Source of the DNA: Haloterrigena gelatinilytica
GTDB lineage: Archaea > Halobacteriota > Halobacteria > Halobacteriales > Natrialbaceae
DNA: 64,000 nucleotides
Direction: 5' to 3'
Assembly (NCBI RefSeq): GCF_013342145.1
Contig: NZ_JABUQZ010000001.1
Coordinates: forward strand, 2,232,001 to 2,296,000
Shown one piece after another: positions 53,925 through 64,000 of the stretch. Under the pieces are notes generated by a model that saw nothing but the letters and a program-made list of their open reading frames with translations, did no database searches and had not been told where the DNA came from. Every line of letters begins with the position of its first letter. The stretch's first letter is position 1. The translations under genes and the position numbers were made by a program.

Positions 53925-55244
53925 ATGGACCGTGAGAACACAGTCCCCCGAGTAGCTTCGTTTCCGGGTTCGAAGAGCAAACGATGGGTCGAGTTTCACC
54001 AGAACACGGCGGCACCCAGTACGTACGTCTACGACTTCGTCTGGGACGTAACCGAAGACGCCACGGGGCCGTTCTGTACCGACGCGGACGGAAACGTCCT
54101 CATGGACTTTACGAGTCACGTGGCCGCGGCGCCGCTCGGATACAATCACCCGACTCTCACGGAGCGGTTACGGGAGTTCGATCTCGTCGACCCGATGAAG
54201 ATCGCCGGACAGGACTTCTACGTCAGTACGGGTGGAACGCCCGAGGAGTCCTCGTTACCCGGCCCCGCACACCTCATGGACAGGCTAACCGAGATCAGCA
54301 GTCAGTACGACATGGACACCGTGTTCCTGTCGAACTCGGGCGCCGAAGCGGTCGAAAACGCGATGAAGATTTGCTACGACGACTGTGAGACGCCGAAGTA
54401 CGCCATCACGTTCGACGACGCGTTCCACGGGCGCACGCTCGGCGCGCTCTCTCTGAACCGCTCGAAATCGGTCTACCGACGGAAGTTCCCCGAGATAAGC
54501 GGGGTCCACGACGTCGAATACTCCGAGCACGGACTCGACCGGCTCCGGGCGAAACTCGGGGATCCGGGGCACATTCCTTCGGAAGAGGTCGGATTTCTCA
54601 TTCTCGAGCCCATTCAGGGGGAGGGAGGCTACAACGTGCCGTCCGCCTCGTTTATGTCGGAGCTGGACGACATCTGCTCGACACACGATATCCCGATCGT
54701 CGTCGACGAGATCCAGTCGGGGATCGGTCGCACCGGCGAGATGTGGGCCGTCGACCACTTCGACATCGAACCGGACGTGATCACGAGCGCGAAGGCGCTC
54801 CGAGTCGGTGCGACGATCTCCAGGTCGGACATATTCCCCGACGAGGAAGCCCGACTCTCCTCGACGTGGGGGGCCGGCGATATTCTCGCATCGATGCAAG
54901 GGGCCCTGACGCTGTCGGTCATCGAAGAGGAGAACCTACTGGACAACGCGACGGAGCTGGGAACGTACTTCCGAGATCGACTTCGCGAACTGGCCGAGCA
55001 AACGTCCATTCTGACCGACGTTCGCGGACTCGGACTGATGATCGCCGTCGAGTTCGATACGGCGGATCACCGCGACGAAGCGATGGAAACGGCGCTCCGA
55101 CACGGGCTACTGACCCTCGGCTGTGGAACGAAGACGCTGCGTCTGCTCCCGCCGCTCGACGTCCGAGAGCGCGAAATCGACATCTGCGTCGACATCATCG
55201 ACGACGTCGTCGACGAAGTCGCTGGTCCGGTGTCGTCCGCGTGA
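53925..55244 (+). CDS. class III PLP aminotransferase (ornithine/GABA-type)
   Basis: A 439-aa fold-type I class III aminotransferase. PLP-binding segments are VFLSNSGAEAVENAMKICYD, the Asp in PIVVDEIQSGIGRTGEMW, and the Schiff-base Lys in ITSAKALRVGATIS. AFHGRTLGALSLNRSK is also conserved. With the arginase next door, ornithine-delta-aminotransferase is the best guess; a GABA or lysine-epsilon aminotransferase is possible. The start at 53925 follows an ATATTTTA box by 27-34 nt, so it may also have its own promoter. Confidence 0.85.
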   Translation: MDRENTVPRVASFPGSKSKRWVEFHQNTAAPSTYVYDFVWDVTEDATGPFCTDADGNVLMDFTSHVAAAPLGYNHPTLTERLREFDLVDPMKIAGQDFYVSTGGTPEESSLPGPAHLMDRLTEISSQYDMDTVFLSNSGAEAVENAMKICYDDCETPKYAITFDDAFHGRTLGALSLNRSKSVYRRKFPEISGVHDVEYSEHGLDRLRAKLGDPGHIPSEEVGFLILEPIQGEGGYNVPSASFMSELDDICSTHDIPIVVDEIQSGIGRTGEMWAVDHFDIEPDVITSAKALRVGATISRSDIFPDEEARLSSTWGAGDILASMQGALTLSVIEEENLLDNATELGTYFRDRLRELAEQTSILTDVRGLGLMIAVEFDTADHRDEAMETALRHGLLTLGCGTKTLRLLPPLDVREREIDICVDIIDDVVDEVAGPVSSA

Positions 55245-55724
55245 AGTAACTCGATTCCGACCGCGGACGGAACGCTGCTGCGGCGCTCGAGTTTCGCTCT
55301 GTGGTCCCTTCTCGGAGATTCGGTCGCCGAGCGGAGCGCGACTCGAACTCGTCTCGAGCGTAGCGTCGGGAAACGCGATGGGAACCGAATTCGGATATAT
55401 CATAGACTGATACCGGTGCTATTCAGAAGCCCAGCCGACCGATTCTGACGAGATGACGCCGCCACGATGCCTACAGCGAGAGCCGGAATGAATACTGCTC
55501 CATCGTACGGGGAGGGGTAAGCGAGCGGTCGCGTCGATATTCGAAAACGAGTACCGAGTCTCACGAACCCGTAGCGGTCGTCGAAGCAAATATTTACAAC
55601 CATACTATTGTAACTATCGTCCGATTTCGTTTGTATATTTCAAACCCCGTCTCGACACCTCTCAGGTGTACTTATCTTCATGCTTATCAAAGGATTTATC
55701 ACGGTTTGGAGTAACATACCATCC
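55245..55724. other. intergenic region before the permease
   Basis: 480 bp without a convincing gene. It contains a candidate operator at 55629-55645 and TATA-like sequences near 55631 and 55693. The left half is GC-rich and the right half AT-rich. Confidence 0.6.
55629..55645. promoter_or_regulatory. candidate IclR operator 3
   Basis: GTTTGTATATTTCAAAC: perfect 5-bp arms with a 7-nt AT-rich spacer, the same TTTG-N7-CAAA form as sites 1 and 2. It lies 80 bp before the chosen permease ATG. Confidence 0.6.
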
Positions 55725-57404
55725 ATGTCCGAGTTCGGGATATTATCGATAGGACCGCCATTGCTGGCGATCGTGCTAGCAATCGCAACGAAACGCGTCA
55801 TCCCCTCGCTATTCGTCGGCATCTGGGCGGGCGGAATCATTTATACCGGTAGTTTCGGGATCGCCCAGTCGTTCGATTGGCTGATCGAGGCGATCATCGC
55901 CGACGACGGCTTCCACGCTCAGATACTGGTGTTCACGCTTCTCCTCGGTTCGGGTGTCGCCCTCATCTGGCGACTCGGCGGCGCTATCGCCGTCCGGAAC
56001 TGGGCCGTCGAGCGACTCGAGTCTCGACGGAAAATCGGACTGATGACGTGGATTCTCGGACTGGGAATCTTCTTCGATTACGCGAGCATGGCGATCGTCG
56101 GGAGTACGATGCGCGAAGCATCGGATCGGCTTCGGATCCCTCGCGAGAAACTGTCTTATATCGTCGACTCGACGACGGCGCCCGTCGCGACGATCGGGAT
56201 TTCGAGCTGGGTCGCGTTCCAGCTATCGATGATCAACGAGGGGTTCAGCAACATCGAATCGGAGGGCGCCGCTCAGGCGCCGGACGTGTTCAGCGTCTAC
56301 CTTCATTCGATCCCCTATAACGCATACGCCATCCTCTCCATCGTTATGGTCGGTATTATCGTTACGACGCAGCGAGACTACGGGGAGATGCTCGACGCCG
56401 AACACCGAGCCCAGACGACCGGCGCGGTGAATGCCCCCGATGCCGACCCCTTGCAAGATATGGACGAAAGCCTCAGCGAACCGAACGCCACCCGGCCGAT
56501 GCTCCGGACCTTCCTCCTCCCGATCTCGATGTTACTCGCCGTCACCGTCGGGGGCGCGTTGTGGACCGGGTACGATGGACAGCCCGTACTCGAGCCGCTA
56601 TTCGCTCTCGAAATCACGACCTTCGTCCGAGAGGTGGTCACGATTGCGGCTGACGGTGCGTGGACGACCGCCCTCATGTGGGGGTCGTTCGCGATGGTGA
56701 TGACGGCGATAGCGATCGGACTCGCGTATGATCTCTGTGATCTCGACGAGAGTATCGACGCGATCCTCGAGGGATTCGAGCTCATGTTGACCGCAGTGAC
56801 GATCCTCGTATTAGCGTGGACGATCGGAACCGTCGCCAACGCACTCGGGACCGGGAACTACGTCGCTAGTTTGGTCGAAAACATCCTTTCGCCCGGTGTC
56901 TTCCCGGCTCTCGTCTTTTTAGTCGCAGCGGTAATCTCCTTTACGATGGGGTCGTCTTGGGCGACCATGGGACTCCTGACTCCGACCGCCATCCCGGTCG
57001 CGTTCGAACTCACCGGCGGGTTCGGCTCCACGTCCGTGGTCGTCGGGGCAGTGTTTTCCGGCGCGATCTTCGGCGATCACACGTCCCCGATTTCCGACAC
57101 TACCGTTCTCTCATCGACGTTTACCGGGACTGATCTCATCGCACACGTTCGCACGCAGAGCTACTATGCCGTGACCGTCGCAATTATCTCGATTCTGTTC
57201 TACTTGACGTACGGGTTCTTTGAAACCAGTCCGGTAGCTCTGCTGCCGGCGGGTATGGTCTTACTCGTCGGAGTCGTCTACGGACTTTCGAAATTCGACG
57301 CGAGGAGAAAAGGCATCGATCTGACCTCGATTCGGAACGGTGCCGGCGATTCCACGTACGACTCGTCCTCGGAGAGCACTACTCCCACGGAACGACTGGA
57401 TTAG
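55725..57404 (+). CDS. NhaC-family membrane permease/antiporter
   Basis: A 559-aa integral membrane protein with about twelve helices. NhaC-family marks are IPSLFVGIWAGGIIYTG near the N-terminus, IFFDYASMAIVGSTMREAS, GSSWATMGLLTPTAIP and GAIFGDHTSPISDTTVLSS. The start at 55725 (MSEFGILSIGPP) matches the usual family start and follows GATTTATC by 25-32 nt; an ATG at 55680 in the same frame would add 15 residues. Family members exchange Na+ and H+ or carry amino acids. In this cluster an arginine or ornithine carrier is a plausible role. Confidence 0.85.
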   Translation: MSEFGILSIGPPLLAIVLAIATKRVIPSLFVGIWAGGIIYTGSFGIAQSFDWLIEAIIADDGFHAQILVFTLLLGSGVALIWRLGGAIAVRNWAVERLESRRKIGLMTWILGLGIFFDYASMAIVGSTMREASDRLRIPREKLSYIVDSTTAPVATIGISSWVAFQLSMINEGFSNIESEGAAQAPDVFSVYLHSIPYNAYAILSIVMVGIIVTTQRDYGEMLDAEHRAQTTGAVNAPDADPLQDMDESLSEPNATRPMLRTFLLPISMLLAVTVGGALWTGYDGQPVLEPLFALEITTFVREVVTIAADGAWTTALMWGSFAMVMTAIAIGLAYDLCDLDESIDAILEGFELMLTAVTILVLAWTIGTVANALGTGNYVASLVENILSPGVFPALVFLVAAVISFTMGSSWATMGLLTPTAIPVAFELTGGFGSTSVVVGAVFSGAIFGDHTSPISDTTVLSSTFTGTDLIAHVRTQSYYAVTVAIISILFYLTYGFFETSPVALLPAGMVLLVGVVYGLSKFDARRKGIDLTSIRNGAGDSTYDSSSESTTPTERLD

Positions 57405-58770
57405 TAGCCTCCGCCGCTCGAGGACTGACGTGATATCGTCGCGAATAACTGACCGACCACGGAACGCGCGTCGATCGAGTCGAGCGGACCGGCCTCGAGA
57501 CGACTGTTCGGGGGCTGCCGGAAGGGTATCCCGACCGTCTTCGACCTGCATATTCTCCGGTCGACTGCGGAGGAGCAGCCCGAAAGGACACTTCAACTAC
57601 CCGGAAGCGAACGCGAGGGCACTGGTTCCGTCTTCGCACTCGCTGGAGATACCTGATCGACGAGGCCGCGCCGTTCGTGCCGTTGGACTCGCCGAGAGCG
57701 ATCGACGCGAACCGATCGCTCTCACTGTGAACGCTGTGAGGACTACGGTGTCCGTCCGGTTTGAATTTTGCAGATGAGGATGGACACTGTATCAGCTTGC
57801 GCAGGCAGCATTTGATCCGTTCCTCTTGCCTATCTCTTTGTAACACAATATTGGAAATACACATATTGTTCCAAATAAATATCTACAACTGGCACAAATT
57901 CGATCCCTAGTCCATTGGCGAGATCTCTCTACCCGCGTTGCACTCGAGCAAAGCAGTGACTAAACGTTCAGTATTATGAGTGGATACTGCCATCTGCCCG
58001 AGATAGACAAATCGGCCTATACGGCTCTACTCGACGGATGCGCCCAGAAATGCAGAACAATTTTCACGTGAATCACTCAAGAGTCGTAATTCAGACCAGC
58101 AGCGTTCTCGTCAGTGGGATACATATCTCCAGACATCGCTGCATCGATATGAAGTCGGACTTCGGCACGAAAAACTGGAAATGGCGTCGTTATTCACATA
58201 CTATAGACGATAGGTACTGGTGATTAACAAACATTCGATATCTCAGACAATCCAAACACTGGCAACACATTTATTCGACAGCCGTCGTAATATTCGGAAG
58301 CATCCCACCAGCAAATAGCGCGAATACAGACCGTTATGGTTTAATAATTCCAATGTCGAAATGGAATTGATTCTCCTCAAGAAGCAATACGATGCACTCA
58401 CCTCCCCATTCGACCCTAGGAGAATTCTGTCCGAATAGCATAGTTGCTGTATATACTGCTAGTATTCACCCAGTTCTGTTCTCACAGTTATAAAATCCTG
58501 TCCCTGGTTTCGTCGATTAACGAACCATTATGTCGCGTATTGGCGCGAAGAGAGGGGCGGATTACGAAAGGGTGGCTATTTTAGCTAATCTGCCAACATA
58601 CGGTTTCTTTTAGGTGGTTTTTCCAGCCATAACCAACATTATAAAAATAATTTTACTACAGACCCGGCTTTTCTCTCCTCCTCTAGAATAGTGGCATAAC
58701 ACCAACAAGACTCTTGAGTCAGTAACCTTGGTACGGTCTCTGCAGTTCGTGAAGCCACTCGCAGTAGAAA

Positions 58771-58793
58771 TGCGCGGACCGGGATTTGAATCC
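58771..58793 (-). other. tRNA-Gly 3'-end fragment, short copy
   Basis: The first 20 bp (TGCGCGGACCGGGATTTGAA) are identical to the start of 58892-58934. On the minus strand this is the 3' acceptor strand and part of the T arm of a tRNA. The match stops after 20 bp, so only the last part of the tRNA end is present. Confidence 0.6.
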
Positions 58794-58891
58794 GACTGCG
58801 AGACGATTGTCCTCACTGCGCTCGGACACTGCGACTCGCGCGCTTCAAATCCCTCTTATACATGTACTCCTCACGTCTGTTCGTCGAAAAG

Positions 58892-58934
58892 TGCGCGGAC
58901 CGGGATTTGAACCCGGGCCATGAGCTTGGAAGGC
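58892..58934 (-). other. tRNA-Gly(UCC) 3' half, probable attachment-site scar
   Basis: On the minus strand the sequence runs from the anticodon loop (CTTCCAA, anticodon UCC) through GCTCATGG, a perfect T arm (CCGGG-TTCAAAT-CCCGG), and the acceptor 3' strand TCCGCGCA. The 5' half of a tRNA, which should begin GCGCGGA, is absent from the adjacent sequence; the DNA beyond reads AGAA and then unrelated bases, so the anticodon stem cannot form fully. This is the structure left by a tyrosine recombinase that uses the anticodon-to-3'-end segment of a tRNA gene as its core site. Confidence 0.7.
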
Positions 58935-59410
58935 TTCTATCACAATCCGTGTGATTTCACCCGTCAAACAGGGTTCAATTCGACGTAGAACGACACAGAT
59001 TCAACACCGACTTCGACAGCACCCTGTCTCTGTCTATTCTCCCACGTTAGCGTTCCAGGCTTCCTCAGTTCGTAATACTATCTAGGATATTATAAAGGCC
59101 GGTGTCGTGAGCTTCAGGGCTTACATCCATAACACGTACCATCCGGTCTACCGCCGTTTTCAGCCGGTCGCGATCTCTCGCCGCTGCGGGGGAGGCCTCA
59201 GTGATCGATCCGAACGATTACCCGAACGCGGAGGCAGAGTGCGTGATCGCTGAGCCTGATTTTCCGACCGACGGATGGTGTCATAGAACGGTTCGCATAC
59301 CCTCGCTACCTCATCGTCAGATTCGGTAAATACAGAGCGTGTATGCAGCAGTGGCTAGTCATCGTTTCACGCGAACTGCGAAGGACCCACCGAGAAGCGG
59401 ATAGACAGTA

Positions 59411-59677
59411 TTATCGCGCTGATGGTGTTCGGTATTCGATCGTCTCGGTTAGTTCGTTGAACTCGACGACTCCATTCTCGGCTAGCGTCGGGAGACATAC
59501 GTGTACTACCTCGTAGGAGACTGCTTCTCTGTCAGGTGCGACTGCGTGCGTCTCTTGCTCGATGATGTGTTCGACGAGGTCGTCGAGCGATGCAGTTCCG
59601 TTGTCCGCGTCCGCTAGGTAGTCGACGATTGTCTGCGACCATTCATCTGCGTGGAACTCGCGATCGAACTCGGGCAT
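59411..59677 (-). CDS. small winged-helix-like protein
   Basis: An 88-aa protein starting at ATG 59677 (MPEFDREFHADEWSQTIVDY). ADNGTASLDDLVEHIIEQET and VSYEVVHVCLPTLAENGVVE, followed by FNELTETIEYRT, follow the pattern of DUF7344-type winged helices, with HVCLPTL in place of HVPKL. It stands alone. Probably a DNA-binding regulator of unknown target. Confidence 0.65.
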   Translation of the reverse strand: MPEFDREFHADEWSQTIVDYLADADNGTASLDDLVEHIIEQETHAVAPDREAVSYEVVHVCLPTLAENGVVEFNELTETIEYRTPSAR

Positions 59678-59942
59678 CGGTGGGTGGTGGCTGTTGTGGA
59701 ATACGCGTGCTGTGTGATGCGTCCCGCGTGACGGCCACGCGAGGAGAACGAGGAGACTGCCTGTTCGTCCGGTATCCCGGCTCAAACGCCCCTTCATAAT
59801 CGGGGCACGAATGCATAGTGTGCAGTCGATGGCTCCGTACCTCAACATAGCACCTGAGACGGATAATCCCGTGCTACGTTACACCGTGTTATCAATCGCC
59901 TCAATTTGACCACCCGATTCCACTGCATCTCTATGCCGACTC

Positions 59943-59974
59943 TGCATACGTAGTTGCCACTCAGTACAGGCGAA
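59943..59974. repeat. dispersed 32-bp repeat, copy 1
   Basis: Contains GCATACGTAGTTG followed by CCACTCAGTACAGGCGAA. It lies directly after the stop of the DUF7511-like gene. Shares 13 continuous bases with copy 2. Confidence 0.6.
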
Positions 59975-60148
59975 CTACTGAGCGTCTTCTGAGTGAACAT
60001 ACGCCCCCTCCTTCGCGCGAATCCATTTCCCTTGGAGTTCATCTTCCGTCGCATCTCCCGGAAAAAGGATACACTCATCGGCTTTTCGCAGATTTTCGAC
60101 TACGACGGGAACGAGTTCGGATCGATCCGAAATAGCACTCCTGATCAT
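59975..60148 (-). CDS. DUF7511-like small protein
   Basis: A 57-aa protein starting at ATG 60148 (MIRSAISDRSELVPVVVENL). ADECILFPGDATEDELQGKW ends in WIRAKEGAYV, a pattern I associate with the haloarchaeal DUF7511 family (a strand pair, then W-I-x-A). The start overlaps the stop of the zinc-ribbon gene by 4 bp, so the two are translationally coupled. Function unknown. Confidence 0.65.
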   Translation of the reverse strand: MIRSAISDRSELVPVVVENLRKADECILFPGDATEDELQGKWIRAKEGAYVHSEDAQ

Positions 60149-60333
60149 TTGAGTTCCTCCTCTCGGAGAGCGGCAGTACCCGTCTCTTCCATAACTCGAA
60201 ACTGGGTTGATCCACATTGACACCCCTCTCTCCCAATCGGTTGGATCGTTCCGTCGCTCCATCTTCGAGCTGCATAGGCGGACCCACAGGAGAGGCATTC
60301 AGCGACTGTTCGTTCGATCTCCCCGTCGGACAT
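60145..60333 (-). CDS. small zinc-ribbon protein
   Basis: A 62-aa protein with cysteine pairs in AECLSCGSAYAARRW and EGCQCGSTQFRVM, making a four-Cys zinc ribbon. It aligns with the 51-aa protein at 19363-19518 over ~38 residues, with the DG and IG positions also kept. First gene of a two-gene unit with the DUF7511-like gene. Function unknown; such proteins may bind nucleic acid or a protein partner. Confidence 0.7.
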   Translation of the reverse strand: MSDGEIERTVAECLSCGSAYAARRWSDGTIQPIGREGCQCGSTQFRVMEETGTAALREEELK

Positions 60334-60395
60334 CGTATGTCTGCTGTCGACGGCCAGCGACGTGAGTGTGACTTGGGGCTATACAAAACCCTTTT

Positions 60396-61061
60396 TCAGC
60401 GCCTATCGGTTAGCTGTTCAGTCTCGGAAAGCGTACTCCCGAGGATGTGCTTGATTCCGCGCCGGAGACGAGACGCGACGGCCTGCTGGGAGATGCCGAG
60501 TTCGTCGCCGAGCTCTTCCATCGTCACCTCGCGCGGGGATTCGAAGTACCCGCGCTGGTAGGCGAGCACCAGCGCCTCTTGCTGCGTGTCGGTGAGCGCT
60601 TCCTCAGTGGCCGTCTCGACCGGCGTGAGTGCGTGGATCTCCGTGGGCGTGATCGGGATCTCCTGGTCTCGACAGCGTTGCTGAAAGGCCGCGAGATCGC
60701 TTCGAGCGTCGCCGCGTACCTCGAACGTCCATCGTCGGTTCGTGCCGATCGCTTTGATCAGCGGGATCTCGGTCTCTACCAGCGTACTGAGCACGCCGGA
60801 ATACTCGAGCGCCCACTCGACGCGTAACAGGTACTCGTCTGCGACCGAATCGACGAGGCGAATGTCGTCCACGCCGGGGTGGCCGGTAAACGCGTCCTCG
60901 ATGTCGTCGACCACAGTTCCTCGCACCCAGAAGTACGGTATGACGACGTCCTGTGCCGGGATTATTCGTTCCAGTTCGACGGTCACGTCCGGCAACTGTT
61001 CGAAGACCGTTCCCAAGGGGAACTGATCGGACGGGACCGTAAAGGTGGCCTCGGTAGCCAT
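60396..61061 (-). CDS. bacterio-opsin-activator-type HTH regulator
   Basis: A 221-aa regulator starting at ATG 61061 (MATEATFTVPSDQFPLGTVF). Residues ~1-150 form the N-terminal sensing domain of bat-like proteins (DVTVELERIIPAQDVVIPYF; VRGDARSDLAAFQQRC). Residues ~165-215 form the HTH_10 domain: LTDTQQEALVLAYQRGYFES, then EELGDELGISQQAVASRLRR. The domain order is typical of haloarchaeal HTH_10 regulators. Target genes unknown; nothing bop-related is nearby. Confidence 0.85.
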   Translation of the reverse strand: MATEATFTVPSDQFPLGTVFEQLPDVTVELERIIPAQDVVIPYFWVRGTVVDDIEDAFTGHPGVDDIRLVDSVADEYLLRVEWALEYSGVLSTLVETEIPLIKAIGTNRRWTFEVRGDARSDLAAFQQRCRDQEIPITPTEIHALTPVETATEEALTDTQQEALVLAYQRGYFESPREVTMEELGDELGISQQAVASRLRRGIKHILGSTLSETEQLTDRR

Positions 61062-61291
61062 CAGCCGAATTGTCTCGTTCCGGCGGTAAATAGCCACCAC
61101 AGAGGACTGGGGCCGGAATCGCATTACTTCGAGAGACACTTTCAATGGCACTTGTACTCGAAACAGGCAAAGAATCCTCACTACACTTAGTGGTCAACGC
61201 CGGCGAGTATAGCTCACTCCCCAAAACTCCCGACCAATGATAGATCACGTGGTCTTAACTAGTGAAAATTACCCGATTGTTATGTGAATGA

Positions 61292-61299
61292 GGTTTAAT
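61292..61299 (+). promoter_or_regulatory. TATA box of the wHTH-HalOD1 pair
   Basis: GTTTAATA lies 28-35 nt before the ATG at 61327, matching a leaderless or short-leader transcript. Confidence 0.5.
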
Positions 61300-61326
61300 A
61301 CCCTGCCAGGGGATATCACGCATGAT

Positions 61327-61779
61327 ATGGTTGACGATAGCGAGTGGGACGACGAGGTCGATGCGAGTTCGAGTAGCTCATCGACTGAGGAACGACACCT
61401 CCCCGAAGCGATACTGGAATTAGATCACGTCTACGAGGCGCTGGGCCATCCTCGGCGTCGTTACCTCTGCTACACGCTTCTCGAGGACACGGAGTGGTCA
61501 CTGACCGATCTGGCGGCGAAAATCGCCGCGTGGGAGACCGATACGCCCGAACACGCGGTCACTGAACTCCAACGAGAACGAGTGTACGTCTCGCTCTATC
61601 ACGCTCACGTTCCCAAATTAGTCGACGAGAACGTCATCGCCTTCGACGATGCGACTGAGACCATTACCGCCGCCCGAAACGCTAAGCAAGTCCTGACTGC
61701 ACTCCGAGGAATGGGTGCGAGTCTCGACAGCAATCAAGAAACACACGCACGTGGTGACATGGATGACGAAGAGCAATAA
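61327..61779 (+). CDS. winged-helix (DUF7344-like) regulator
   Basis: A 150-aa protein. LDHVYEALGHPRRRYLCYTL, then LLEDTEWSLTDLAAKIAAWE and VYVSLYHAHVPKLVDENVIA form the DUF7344-type wHTH with the HVPKL signature. The N-terminal 25 residues are acidic and Ser-rich. The start at 61327 is chosen over one 39 bp upstream because of the promoter spacing. Its 3' end overlaps the HalOD1 gene by 17 bp, so the two are probably made together. Confidence 0.75.
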   Translation: MVDDSEWDDEVDASSSSSSTEERHLPEAILELDHVYEALGHPRRRYLCYTLLEDTEWSLTDLAAKIAAWETDTPEHAVTELQRERVYVSLYHAHVPKLVDENVIAFDDATETITAARNAKQVLTALRGMGASLDSNQETHARGDMDDEEQ

Positions 61780-62125
61780 CGGCAGACCCGGTAGCGAAGA
61801 CGACCCGGTCCTCAGCGGAGACACCCGCTGGCGACAGATCACGCAACGACTCTACGAACCCGACCGCGACGGTGATCTCACGACAGCGATCGTATTCGTC
61901 ATCGCAGAAGCCGAGGACGTCTCCCCGAGCGAGGTGAAATCCCCGCCATTGTACGAGGCCGTCGATGTGGCCGGTATCGAAGACGCGTTCTTCGGCTTCA
62001 ACGGCGGGGCCGTGTCTCGACAGGGAACGGGAACTACCGAATTTCGCTACACGGAGTATCTCGTCAAAGTCAGGAGCGATGGCTGGATTCAAGTCTACGA
62101 GCCGACCGAAACTGAGCTTTCGTGA
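61763..62125 (+). CDS. HalOD1 output-domain protein
   Basis: A 120-aa protein. TTAIVFVIAEAEDVSPSEVK and SPPLYEAVDVAGIEDAFFGF match the HalOD1 domain, and EFRYTEYLVKVRSDGWIQVY continues its beta-rich half. It overlaps the preceding wHTH gene. Pairing of a DNA-binding domain gene with a stand-alone output domain suggests a divided regulator; partner not known. Confidence 0.72.
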   Translation: MTKSNNGRPGSEDDPVLSGDTRWRQITQRLYEPDRDGDLTTAIVFVIAEAEDVSPSEVKSPPLYEAVDVAGIEDAFFGFNGGAVSRQGTGTTEFRYTEYLVKVRSDGWIQVYEPTETELS

Positions 62126-62240
62126 ACTCCGGTAGAGACGGCAGACCGGTAGGCAACCCCTCGAACATACTAGGTGCGTTTCTCCTATCTATTCTTTCAT
62201 CCTTGAGATGAAATGCGGAATAAATGGAATACCGATCAGT

Positions 62241-62272
62241 TCGCATACGTAGTTGTCATTCAGTCAGGTGAA
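62241..62272. repeat. dispersed 32-bp repeat, copy 2
   Basis: TCGCATACGTAGTTG then TCATTCAGTCAGGTGAA. It lies between two convergent genes (62125 and 62311). Confidence 0.6.
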
Positions 62273-62310
62273 TCACTTAGTATCGGATGAGCACGTCTAT
62301 ATCGGTCTGG

Positions 62311-62613
62311 CTATCTAATTGCTTGGTAGTACTTTCGAGTACCCTTACCGTCGTCGATCACGCGAGTCTCGATCGCGCCCCGGCGGTAAAGATCGATGAG
62401 AGACACTTTCACTGCGATTATATCGAGTTGGTACTCGCTCAATGTCTCCGATTCGCTTTCCTCCGTCGTCGAGAGAGTGGGCTCGCAAATCTCGGCCGCG
62501 ATTTCCGGGACGGAGAATGCCTGCTGCTCGTGACTGGCTAAGAATTCTCGTACCTCCTCCTCGATGTTCTGTTCTTTCCGTCCTCGCTGAAAGGTTTCGT
62601 TATCGATCGGCAT
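62311..62613 (-). CDS. small winged-helix-like protein, unrecognised family
   Basis: A 100-aa protein. EEEVREFLASHEQQAFSVPE and IAAEICEPTL resemble the first helices of a winged helix; VSLIDLYRRGAIETRVIDD and GKGTRKYYQAIR look like the wing and C-terminal strand, a pattern common in small archaeal transcription factors. No specific family recognised. It is convergent with the HalOD1 gene and has repeats on both sides. Confidence 0.55.
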   Translation of the reverse strand: MPIDNETFQRGRKEQNIEEEVREFLASHEQQAFSVPEIAAEICEPTLSTTEESESETLSEYQLDIIAVKVSLIDLYRRGAIETRVIDDGKGTRKYYQAIR

Positions 62614-62675
62614 ACCGTGTTAGTAGACGTTCTGTAGCGGAATCGGTGTTTCGACGAGATACCTTAAGAGTTCGT

Positions 62676-62708
62676 TCGCATATCTGGTTGCCGTTCAGCA
62701 TAGGTGAA
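62676..62708. repeat. dispersed 32-bp repeat, copy 3
   Basis: TCGCATATCTGGTTG then CCGTTCAGCATAGGTGAA. More diverged than copies 1 and 2. It runs directly into the tandem repeat at 62691-62764. Confidence 0.5.
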
Positions 62709-62764
62709 GAACATACCGTTCAGCAAAGTTACACAAATGCCGGTCAGCGTAGGGAAGAAGCAAC
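62691..62764. repeat. three tandem 24-25-bp imperfect repeats
   Basis: Units begin CCGTTCAGCATAGG (62691), CCGTTCAGCAAAG (62716) and CCGGTCAGCGTAGG (62740), 25 and 24 bp apart. They lie in the spacer between two minus-strand genes. Confidence 0.6.
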
Positions 62765-62890
62765 ACACCAAATATTTTGGGAACAGTAGTTATCCCTTGT
62801 TCAGTCACTTTAACCGATAATGGCAATTAGAGATGGTTGAGGAGTCCTTTCGGGAAGGTGGAGCATATAACATCCCCACAGCGGGCACAG

Positions 62891-63214
62891 TTATACGCTA
62901 GACGATTGAACATTGTGACTGCTTAGCGTGTGTAGGAGTTCCTCACACAGGGGGTTAGGATAGTATCGAATCGTTTCACTCCGCGAATCCCACTCGATCA
63001 GCGTGGACTCATCCAATTTCGGCAGGTGAACGTGATGTAGTTCGCTGGACACGGACGCTCCGTCCTGTAACGAATCCAGATGAGCCAGCAATTCGTCGAT
63101 AGTTGCTGTATTATTCGGTTGCCTCTCAAGGAACCGGAGTGTCTGTCGTCTGTGGTGATGACACAGTAACTGGAGCAAGCGGTCACATCTCTCCGCGTGT
63201 GTTTTGCTGGGCAT
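62891..63214 (-). CDS. winged-helix (DUF7344-like) regulator
   Basis: A 107-aa protein. CDRLLQLLCHHHRRQTLRFL, then NTATIDELLAHLDSLQDG and SSELHHVHLPKLDESTLIEW form the wHTH, with HVHLPKL in place of the HVPKL signature. The C-terminal helix contains NPLCEELLHTL. Probably a DNA-binding regulator. No partner gene overlaps it. Confidence 0.72.
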   Translation of the reverse strand: MPSKTHAERCDRLLQLLCHHHRRQTLRFLERQPNNTATIDELLAHLDSLQDGASVSSELHHVHLPKLDESTLIEWDSRSETIRYYPNPLCEELLHTLSSHNVQSSSV

Positions 63215-63345
63215 TGAAATTCGACCCTTATTCCCTAAAATACGCAGTCACGGATAAGTGTAACTCACATATCAACCTATGAATTGTGAATTTTGCACTC
63301 TCACCCATCAATTTTGTAATTTTCGGTTGCGGGGTGTGATGTTCG

Positions 63346-63873
63346 TTAGTGTGTTTCGTCGGGCTGGAAGTGCCCCCAGGGTTGACTATAGCTTGCGGTG
63401 ATTATTTCGGAACTGTGGATGGTGAGTCCGTACTCGTTCAATTCTTTCGTGAGTCGGATGAGGTCAGTCGTGGATGTCGAAACCGTTTCGATATAGAGAT
63501 TGTGTTCGTTGGTGATCATTTCGGTGACCTGAACGACACCGGTTACGGAGAGAACATTTCTGCTGACGCTCGATCGCTCCTCCGGATCACTCGTACAGAC
63601 GAAAAAGAGCCGGAGGGGAAAGCCGGCTTTTTCGTAGTTGAGTTTGGGTTCGTAGCCTTCGATAACGCCTGCGTCCTCCATGTTATCGATCCGGTTGCGG
63701 ACGGTACTGGGTGAGACGTCCACTTCCTCCGAGATTTCGGTGATCGTCGCATTACGGGCATCGCGTTGAAGCGCAAATAGGACGCCTTCATCGATGGTGT
63801 CGATCTCAAACGGCTCGTCGTTCTCCACGTCTAGATCCGACTCTGCCAGGGAGGAGTCCTCTTCATTAGCCAT
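63346..63873 (-). CDS. Lrp/AsnC-family transcriptional regulator
   Basis: A 175-aa regulator. After an acidic 30-aa N-terminus, IDEGVLFALQRDARNATITE and VDVSPSTVRNRIDNMEDAGV form the winged helix, and PKLNYEKAGFPLRLFFVCTS starts the sensing half. The start at 63873 (MANEEDSSLAES) has a typical acidic haloarchaeal N-terminus. Its layout is like 33298-33774. Target genes unknown. Confidence 0.85.
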   Translation of the reverse strand: MANEEDSSLAESDLDVENDEPFEIDTIDEGVLFALQRDARNATITEISEEVDVSPSTVRNRIDNMEDAGVIEGYEPKLNYEKAGFPLRLFFVCTSDPEERSSVSRNVLSVTGVVQVTEMITNEHNLYIETVSTSTTDLIRLTKELNEYGLTIHSSEIITASYSQPWGHFQPDETH

Positions 63874-64000
63874 AGTGTAGCTACCATGGCTGGACGAAAG
63901 AAGATTGACCCCAAAGACGTGTATTGTTCGTCGCCGTCATTCTCTTACGTACCATCGGCTTCCTGCGGGAAAGGGCTACGACTGATCTAACCGTATTCAT

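Follow-up and report, generated by a model that had tools for sequence, protein, structure and literature searches.

We report that a 121-bp element behind the tRNA-Gly(UCC) end of Haloterrigena gelatinilytica belongs to a conserved, structured family of repeats tied to tRNA genes, and that it is older than the genomic island whose 44-bp attachment scar now lies next to it. The stretch analysed, hereafter the window, is 64,000 nucleotides long and corresponds to C1:2232001-2296000 of the 4.55 Mb genome. Each unit of the family repeats the 3' end of the tRNA that it follows and folds upon that copy. The account as a whole, in which an island scar stands beside an older resident tail-repeat unit that may form a structured tRNA trailer, is in our judgement about evenly poised between right and wrong.

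A 44-bp tRNA-Gly half left by an 18.65-kb island

The features of the site and its left flank are as follows.

55680..57404, plus strand: ORF of 574 aa in the native left flank, syntenic in the genomes with an empty site; Na+/H+ antiporter-like by impression from the sequence
58892..58935, minus strand: tRNA-Gly(UCC) 3' part of 44 bp, supported by 44/44 identity to the intact tRNA and by the empty site in congeners G002 and G004
58936..64000, no strand: left 5.1 kb of the island with HTH/Lrp/BAT-type regulator genes (59411-63873), lying between the scar and the intact tRNA, lower in G+C and absent from G002 and G004

Read on the minus strand, positions 58935-58892 are AGCCTTCCAAGCTCATGGCCCGGGTTCAAATCCCGGTCCGCGCA, comprising the end of the anticodon 5' stem, the TCC anticodon loop, the variable region, the T arm, the acceptor 3' strand and the discriminator A. 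The initial annotation had taken this stretch for a tRNA-Gly(UCC) 3' half without a neighbouring 5' half, and this reading holds: all 44 letters match the intact tRNA-Gly at C1:2309542-2309612, with identity ending sharply on both sides of the alignment, and ARAGORN detected no tRNA in the window, nor does any 5' half adjoin 58892-58935. The common core had been given as 43 bp; the shared stretch is real and its true length is 44 bp. A split or intron-bearing tRNA-Gly was ruled out, the intact gene being present and the fragment beginning within the anticodon stem. When a 23-bp string of the tRNA-Gly end was searched against the genome with up to 2 mismatches, only three sites were found (window 58771, window 58892 and C1:2309542), and the reversed control gave no match in the whole genome.

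An intact minus-strand tRNA-Gly(UCC) with the common core, accompanied by a tyrosine integrase, had been predicted to the right of the window, and both were located: the tRNA gene lies 18.6 kb from the half, and an integrase frame with a PF00589 match (C1:2308321-2308755) begins 153 bp from its 3' end. A single in-frame TGA splits this frame into ORFs of 223 and 134 aa. An unbroken 369-aa homologue occurs in G031, and integrase relatives sought in the contigs of other genomes were not confirmed by the scan. Since the frame is broken the island is probably stuck, with excision predicted to be lost.

Comparison to genomes lacking the insert, suggested earlier as a check, revealed an empty site in two congeners. 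Window 54000-57840 is matched at 93% in G002 (L143) and 55544-57465 at 89% in G004 (L142); the left-flank matches cover 55544-58794 in G004 and 54000-57840 plus 58714-58935 in G002, and to the right, from C1:2309541 on, the match is 92-93% over 5.4 kb in G004 and 3.3 kb in G002. In both congeners the two flanks are contiguous round an intact tRNA-Gly, which demonstrates the 18.65-kb insertion. The island thereby displays the features of a tRNA-targeting tyrosine-integrase element, namely end repeats, an integrase next to the intact tRNA and an empty site in relatives. Given the 44/44 identity, the integrase beside the intact tRNA and the joined flanks of the congeners, 58892-58935 is firmly assigned as the far attachment scar of an island in tRNA-Gly(UCC). 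The island entered the 3' part of the gene and brought its own copy, the original 44-bp part being displaced to the far end. Recombination near the anticodon loop, as first proposed, is not borne out, exchange being possible anywhere in the 44 bp.

The island is in itself ordinary. It extends rightward past the window to C1:2309541, and the regulator cluster of 59-64 kb indeed falls within the element, since it lies between scar and intact tRNA and is absent from G002 and G004. G+C is 54% in the left 5.1 kb, 59.1% in the whole island and 65.5% in the window left of the island. Scanned island proteins comprised GH15 glucoamylase-like, SPW/VKOR, short-chain dehydrogenase, CNNM, universal stress protein and BAT/HTH_10 plus Lrp-type regulators, a cargo of metabolic, stress and regulatory functions; no structural virus genes were seen among them.

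A resident unit rather than a second scar

The 20-bp identical copy described previously at 58771-58790 is likewise real (20/20 identical to the tRNA-Gly end, 22/23 when extended), and its start lies 121 bp from that of the 44-bp half. It forms part of a larger unit with the following features.

58771..58891, minus strand: tRNA tail-repeat unit of 121 bp; the same unit stands behind the intact tRNA-Gly of G002 (L009), and the covariance model matches
58771..58790, minus strand: tail copy, the last 20 nt of tRNA-Gly (T loop, T stem 3' strand, acceptor 3' strand, A73), with 20/20 identity
58791..58843, minus strand: core hairpin with an inner stem and a mini-hairpin carrying a GCA triloop (58812-58824), supported by compensatory changes and homologous cores behind other tRNAs
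58844..58853, minus strand: complementary arm GGGATTTGAA, pairing with TTCAAATCCC of the tail copy, supported by the fold and by covarying pairs 57, 59 and 62
58855..58891, minus strand: short hairpin segment H1, supported by the unit fold and by the same position in G002 (L009)

The match to the covariance model spans 58854-58771 (74.1 bits, E 2.5e-16), a score to be read with the close G002 copy having been in the training set. The 20-bp copy, in contrast to the half, can no longer be read as another attachment scar. In G002 (L009) the unit of 58771-58891 is found directly behind an intact, uninterrupted tRNA-Gly, with about 90% identity over the 222 bp of 58714-58935 and with H1 abutting the tRNA 3' end, and like units lie behind many tRNAs. 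Because G002 carries the unit behind an intact tRNA without an insert, the unit predates the island, and its presence at the empty site places the insertion between the unit and its tRNA. The 121-bp unit thus already stood behind tRNA-Gly when the island entered and left it outside. A conserved position in relatives without any insert, named beforehand as what would speak against a scar, therefore applies to the 20-bp copy only, and the 44-bp half stands. Tandem scars of two elements were ruled out by the unit at the G002 empty site.

The unit is variable in number at this locus. There is none behind tRNA-Gly in G004 (L010) or G001 (L008), the homologous flank of G004 joining the tRNA exactly at the tail copy, and G016 has five tandem units. 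As congeners freely lack it, the Gly unit is not essential in them. Inserts at tRNA-Gly in G031, G025 and G005 have a unit plus half at one end and a unit plus tRNA at the other. The 1.6-kb insert of G005 (L145, 4361-5993) holds a metallo-beta-lactamase-fold-like gene, and a 5.5-kb insert in G009 (L144, 3398-8900) encodes a 1292-aa restriction-modification-like protein; no integrase was seen in either.

Distribution of the units

A copy of a gene's own tail (last 18 nt, at most 4 mismatches, within 300 bp downstream) was detected for 19 of 42 tRNA genes tested in this genome, nine of them exact, as against 0/42 in the upstream control and 24 of 1646 comparisons with the tails of other tRNAs downstream. 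In six other haloarchaeal genomes, a tail copy with at most 3 mismatches follows 10 of 33 tRNAs. Outside the haloarchaea there was none among the sampled tRNAs, the one positive of the phylum sample being the haloarchaeal genome G039. Pooling gave 71 units behind 21 isoacceptors, with most first copies 76-126 nt downstream of the tRNA, and exact matches to a tRNA-Gly tail pair occur in Natrialba, Natronorubrum, Natronococcus, Natrinema and kin.

The covariance model R2 gave 31 matches in the genome at E up to 1. Every one of those at E<0.01 is found behind a tRNA gene or at a stranded tRNA half, unlike a dispersed REP/MITE-like repeat, whose copies would be scattered without regard to tRNA genes. 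Three matches appeared to be orphans: two of them follow tRNA-Pro(CGG) and the intron-bearing tRNA-Trp (two units), neither of which was in the R2 training set, and the third has a tRNA-Val 3' half next to it, at 975 kb and some 19 kb away from tRNA-Val(GAC). Across 120 genomes of the phylum, R2 gave 3-29 matches each in 18 of 19 haloarchaea and, among about 100 non-haloarchaeal members, one marginal match in each of two genomes (E 0.005 and 0.009); these counts are lower bounds because the filters lose weak matches.

No such family is present in Rfam: cmscan of six unit-bearing loci at E up to 1 returned the tRNA and chance matches only, which rules out a known Rfam RNA for the units. In viral contigs a pattern with arms and core gave no match, a loose core pattern was discarded, the matches listed being unspecific, and a third pattern matched 4 contigs. 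The literature searched, in which few subscription papers could be reached, describes tRNA islands and the Methanopyrus kandleri palindrome and gives no account of these units; provisionally, the tail-repeat family is apparently undescribed so far.

Structure, covariation and a shared core

In the sense of the tRNA, the order is tRNA, H1, an arm complementary to the T loop and T stem, the core hairpin and the copied T loop, T stem and acceptor strand. The long hairpin H2 has the last ~19 nt of the local tRNA as its 3' side and a 5' arm complementary to the T-loop part of that copy, examples of the arm pairs being TTCAACTCC/GGAGTTGAA for Lys, TTCAATTCC/GGAATTGAA for Gly(CCC) and TTCAAATCTAC/GTAGATTTGAA for Met. 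With an anchor blind to tRNA-specific letters, positions 57, 59 and 62 were found to covary with the tRNA across isoacceptors above all 500 shuffles (0/500). In alignment A1 (35 units) 93.4% of cells are paired, two-sided changes occur in 11 of 18 pairs, including compensatory changes in the inner stem and the tip, and covariation reaches 0.345; shuffling lowers it to 0.158 (0/500), and sliding the partners to 0.099 or less.

At the tip, most units form a stem of two pairs capped by a GNA loop (GC 18, AU 14), and the strict motif is present in 31 of 51 units. This motif, YGARCGNAGYGAR (a GNA-loop mini-hairpin with GA/GA flanks), has 133 sites in the genome against 38 for the reversed control (~3.5-fold), two of them in the window (31081 and 58812); as it is enriched genome-wide, beyond tRNA flanks too, it is not specific to the units. 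On the tRNA-sense strand G-U outnumbers A-C by 29:13, a modest excess among related, not independent, rows, which points to a single-stranded molecule. GNA triloops are a hallmark of exceptionally stable DNA hairpins (PMC4686876), so that DNA could be the single strand concerned.

The cores are shared between tRNAs, 46 of 51 having at least 70% identity to a core behind a different tRNA (shuffled 0/51); the Gly(UCC) core of G024 and the Gly(GCC) core of the present genome are 94% identical. The core is hence common to tRNAs and the unit ends follow the local tRNA. Together the units constitute a conserved structured family tied to tRNA genes, a conclusion that we regard as firm on computational grounds.

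Relation to known systems

The rtT RNA of Escherichia coli is released from the tyrT transcript. In E. coli K-12 (NC_000913.3) three exact copies of the final 19 nt of tRNA-Tyr (tyrV) are spaced 178 bp apart, each repeat has an arm GGGGAAGGAT facing ATCCTTCCCC (10 nt) that encloses hairpins, and the stretch is annotated as the ncRNA rttR and the protein Tpr. The haloarchaeal units resemble this tyrT (tyrTV)/rttR arrangement in repeating the 3'-terminal ~19 nt of a tRNA behind that tRNA and in having an arm complementary to the tail copy that encloses hairpins. The two differ in arm register, which covers the T stem and acceptor start in E. coli and the T loop and T stem in haloarchaea, and in extent, one tRNA-Tyr operon having been looked at in E. 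coli as against about half of the tRNA genes in haloarchaea. No sequence homology with rttR or its Rfam family was found (cmscan of six loci; R2 against rttR), and the units are therefore said to work like, rather than to be members of, the rttR type.

Among archaea, the GI3 island of Haloquadratum walsbyi lies in tRNA-His with a 43-nt 3' repeat and an adjacent integrase (PMC3119063). The present island shares with such elements an intact tRNA at one end, a tRNA 3' part of ~43-44 bp at the other and a tyrosine integrase beside the tRNA; unlike GI3 it occupies tRNA-Gly(UCC), its integrase is broken and its cargo is metabolic, stress-related and regulatory. In M. kandleri a palindrome, CGTTA-N9-TAACG, lies ~10 bp behind about half of the tRNA genes (PMC5217627). 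The haloarchaeal units are likewise palindromic and lie behind about half of an archaeon's tRNA genes, whereas the M. kandleri palindrome is short and does not repeat the tRNA end. SNJ2-type haloarchaeal integrase sites use a short tRNA 3'-end segment as attachment core (PMC8371274); unlike these, the units are hairpins resident without an element, and none is found on viral contigs with the pattern of arms and core.

The units would represent an order-wide feature of archaeal tRNA genes, a structured element copying the end of the preceding gene, and the E. coli tyrT repeats, long an isolated oddity, would become one case of a design that two domains share. In haloarchaea a partial tRNA 3' end is not in itself proof of an integration scar, which bears on the prediction of islands and proviruses from tRNA fragments. 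The units would also connect tRNA transcripts, integration sites and small RNAs in a way that can be tested.

Proposed role and alternative explanations

Our best guess is that the units may function as structured tRNA trailers. They would be transcribed as trailers of tRNA transcripts and act as structured RNA, a role also supposed for the E. coli rttR (tyrT) repeats. The arm would sequester the copied tail and so, we propose, keep it from competing with the T and acceptor strands of the tRNA itself; the tail copy and the T-rich letters after it could provide an additional 3'-end or processing site, and recombination between tail copies could alter the number of units. Several points stand against this proposal. 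Transcription could stop ahead of the unit at the T-rich letters right after many tRNAs, units are missing from about half of the tRNA genes, the stranded unit of this genome retains tail and arm 18 kb from its tRNA, and E. coli rttR is not matched by the covariance model.

The tail copies might instead be attachment sites or scars, that is spare attB sites (lightning rods) kept to divert elements from the tRNA, or remnants of serial integration. Integrases are known to target a short segment of the tRNA 3' end (PMC8371274), unit presence or absence is exact at the tail copy, the G009 insert with its restriction-modification gene is flanked by a 3' half and by the tail copy of the outermost unit, and the small inserts of G031, G025 and G005 have a unit at each end. 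Since these inserts are bounded by units, tail copies may sometimes serve as attachment sites, though this is suggestive only. Scars would not, however, yield tRNA-specific arms, compensatory changes, a shared core and near-constant spacing behind 21 isoacceptors; the pattern of arms and core is absent from viral contigs, and in the present genome and in G015 the element used the tRNA itself. We consider this explanation unlikely.

We would also give a low probability to functionless birth-and-death repeats, in which one tail duplication was followed by slippage or gene conversion between tail copies and the hairpins are a by-product of palindrome-prone copying. The range of 0 to 5 copies at one locus, varying within a genus, fits this explanation, as do the divergence of the present and G002 units, which is about that of their flanks (about 90% identity), and the several differences between the two that on inspection break pairs. 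It fails to account for the strong two-sided covariation seen in the arms as well as in the inner stem and the tip, for arms that track the T loop of each tRNA and for the occurrence of units in several haloarchaeal families.

A haloarchaeal self-propagating hairpin module confined to tRNA 3' flanks, with a mobile core and ends rewritten to the local tRNA, and with E. coli tyrT as an independent bacterial instance, seems to us quite unlikely. Least probable, and very unlikely in our estimate, is a module acting at the DNA level, moving as single-stranded DNA between tRNA genes and adopting the 3' end of the tRNA at its landing site: the homologous cores with different tRNA ends (46/51 vs 0/51), the GNA-loop mini-hairpins, exceptionally stable in DNA (PMC4686876), and the restriction to tRNA 3' flanks would suit it, but there is no linked enzyme, no unit was found away from a tRNA, and slow gene conversion between tRNA loci via the common T loop would also account for the shared cores.

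Other loci

In Natronorubrum bangense the tRNA-Gly(UCC) end and the same unit occur on the chromosome and on an 828-kb plasmid record (L151, L158); a plasmid-borne attP with a unit was ruled out, as the record (L158) holds the full tRNA-Gly start and gene neighbours. To the right of the intact tRNA-Gly of the present genome lies an operon-like set of three genes (L006, 746-7673; C1:2309746-2316673), whose products give the impression, from sequence, of a 738-aa repeat membrane protein, a GTPase-like protein and a 1086-aa tubulin/FtsZ-like coiled-coil protein. A second island with the same geometry is present in this genome, with a unit and tRNA-Val 3' half at 975.5 kb (L176, about 1500-1660; C1:975417 onward), tRNA-Val(GAC) at C1:994797-994871 and integrase-domain matches at 977 and 991 kb.
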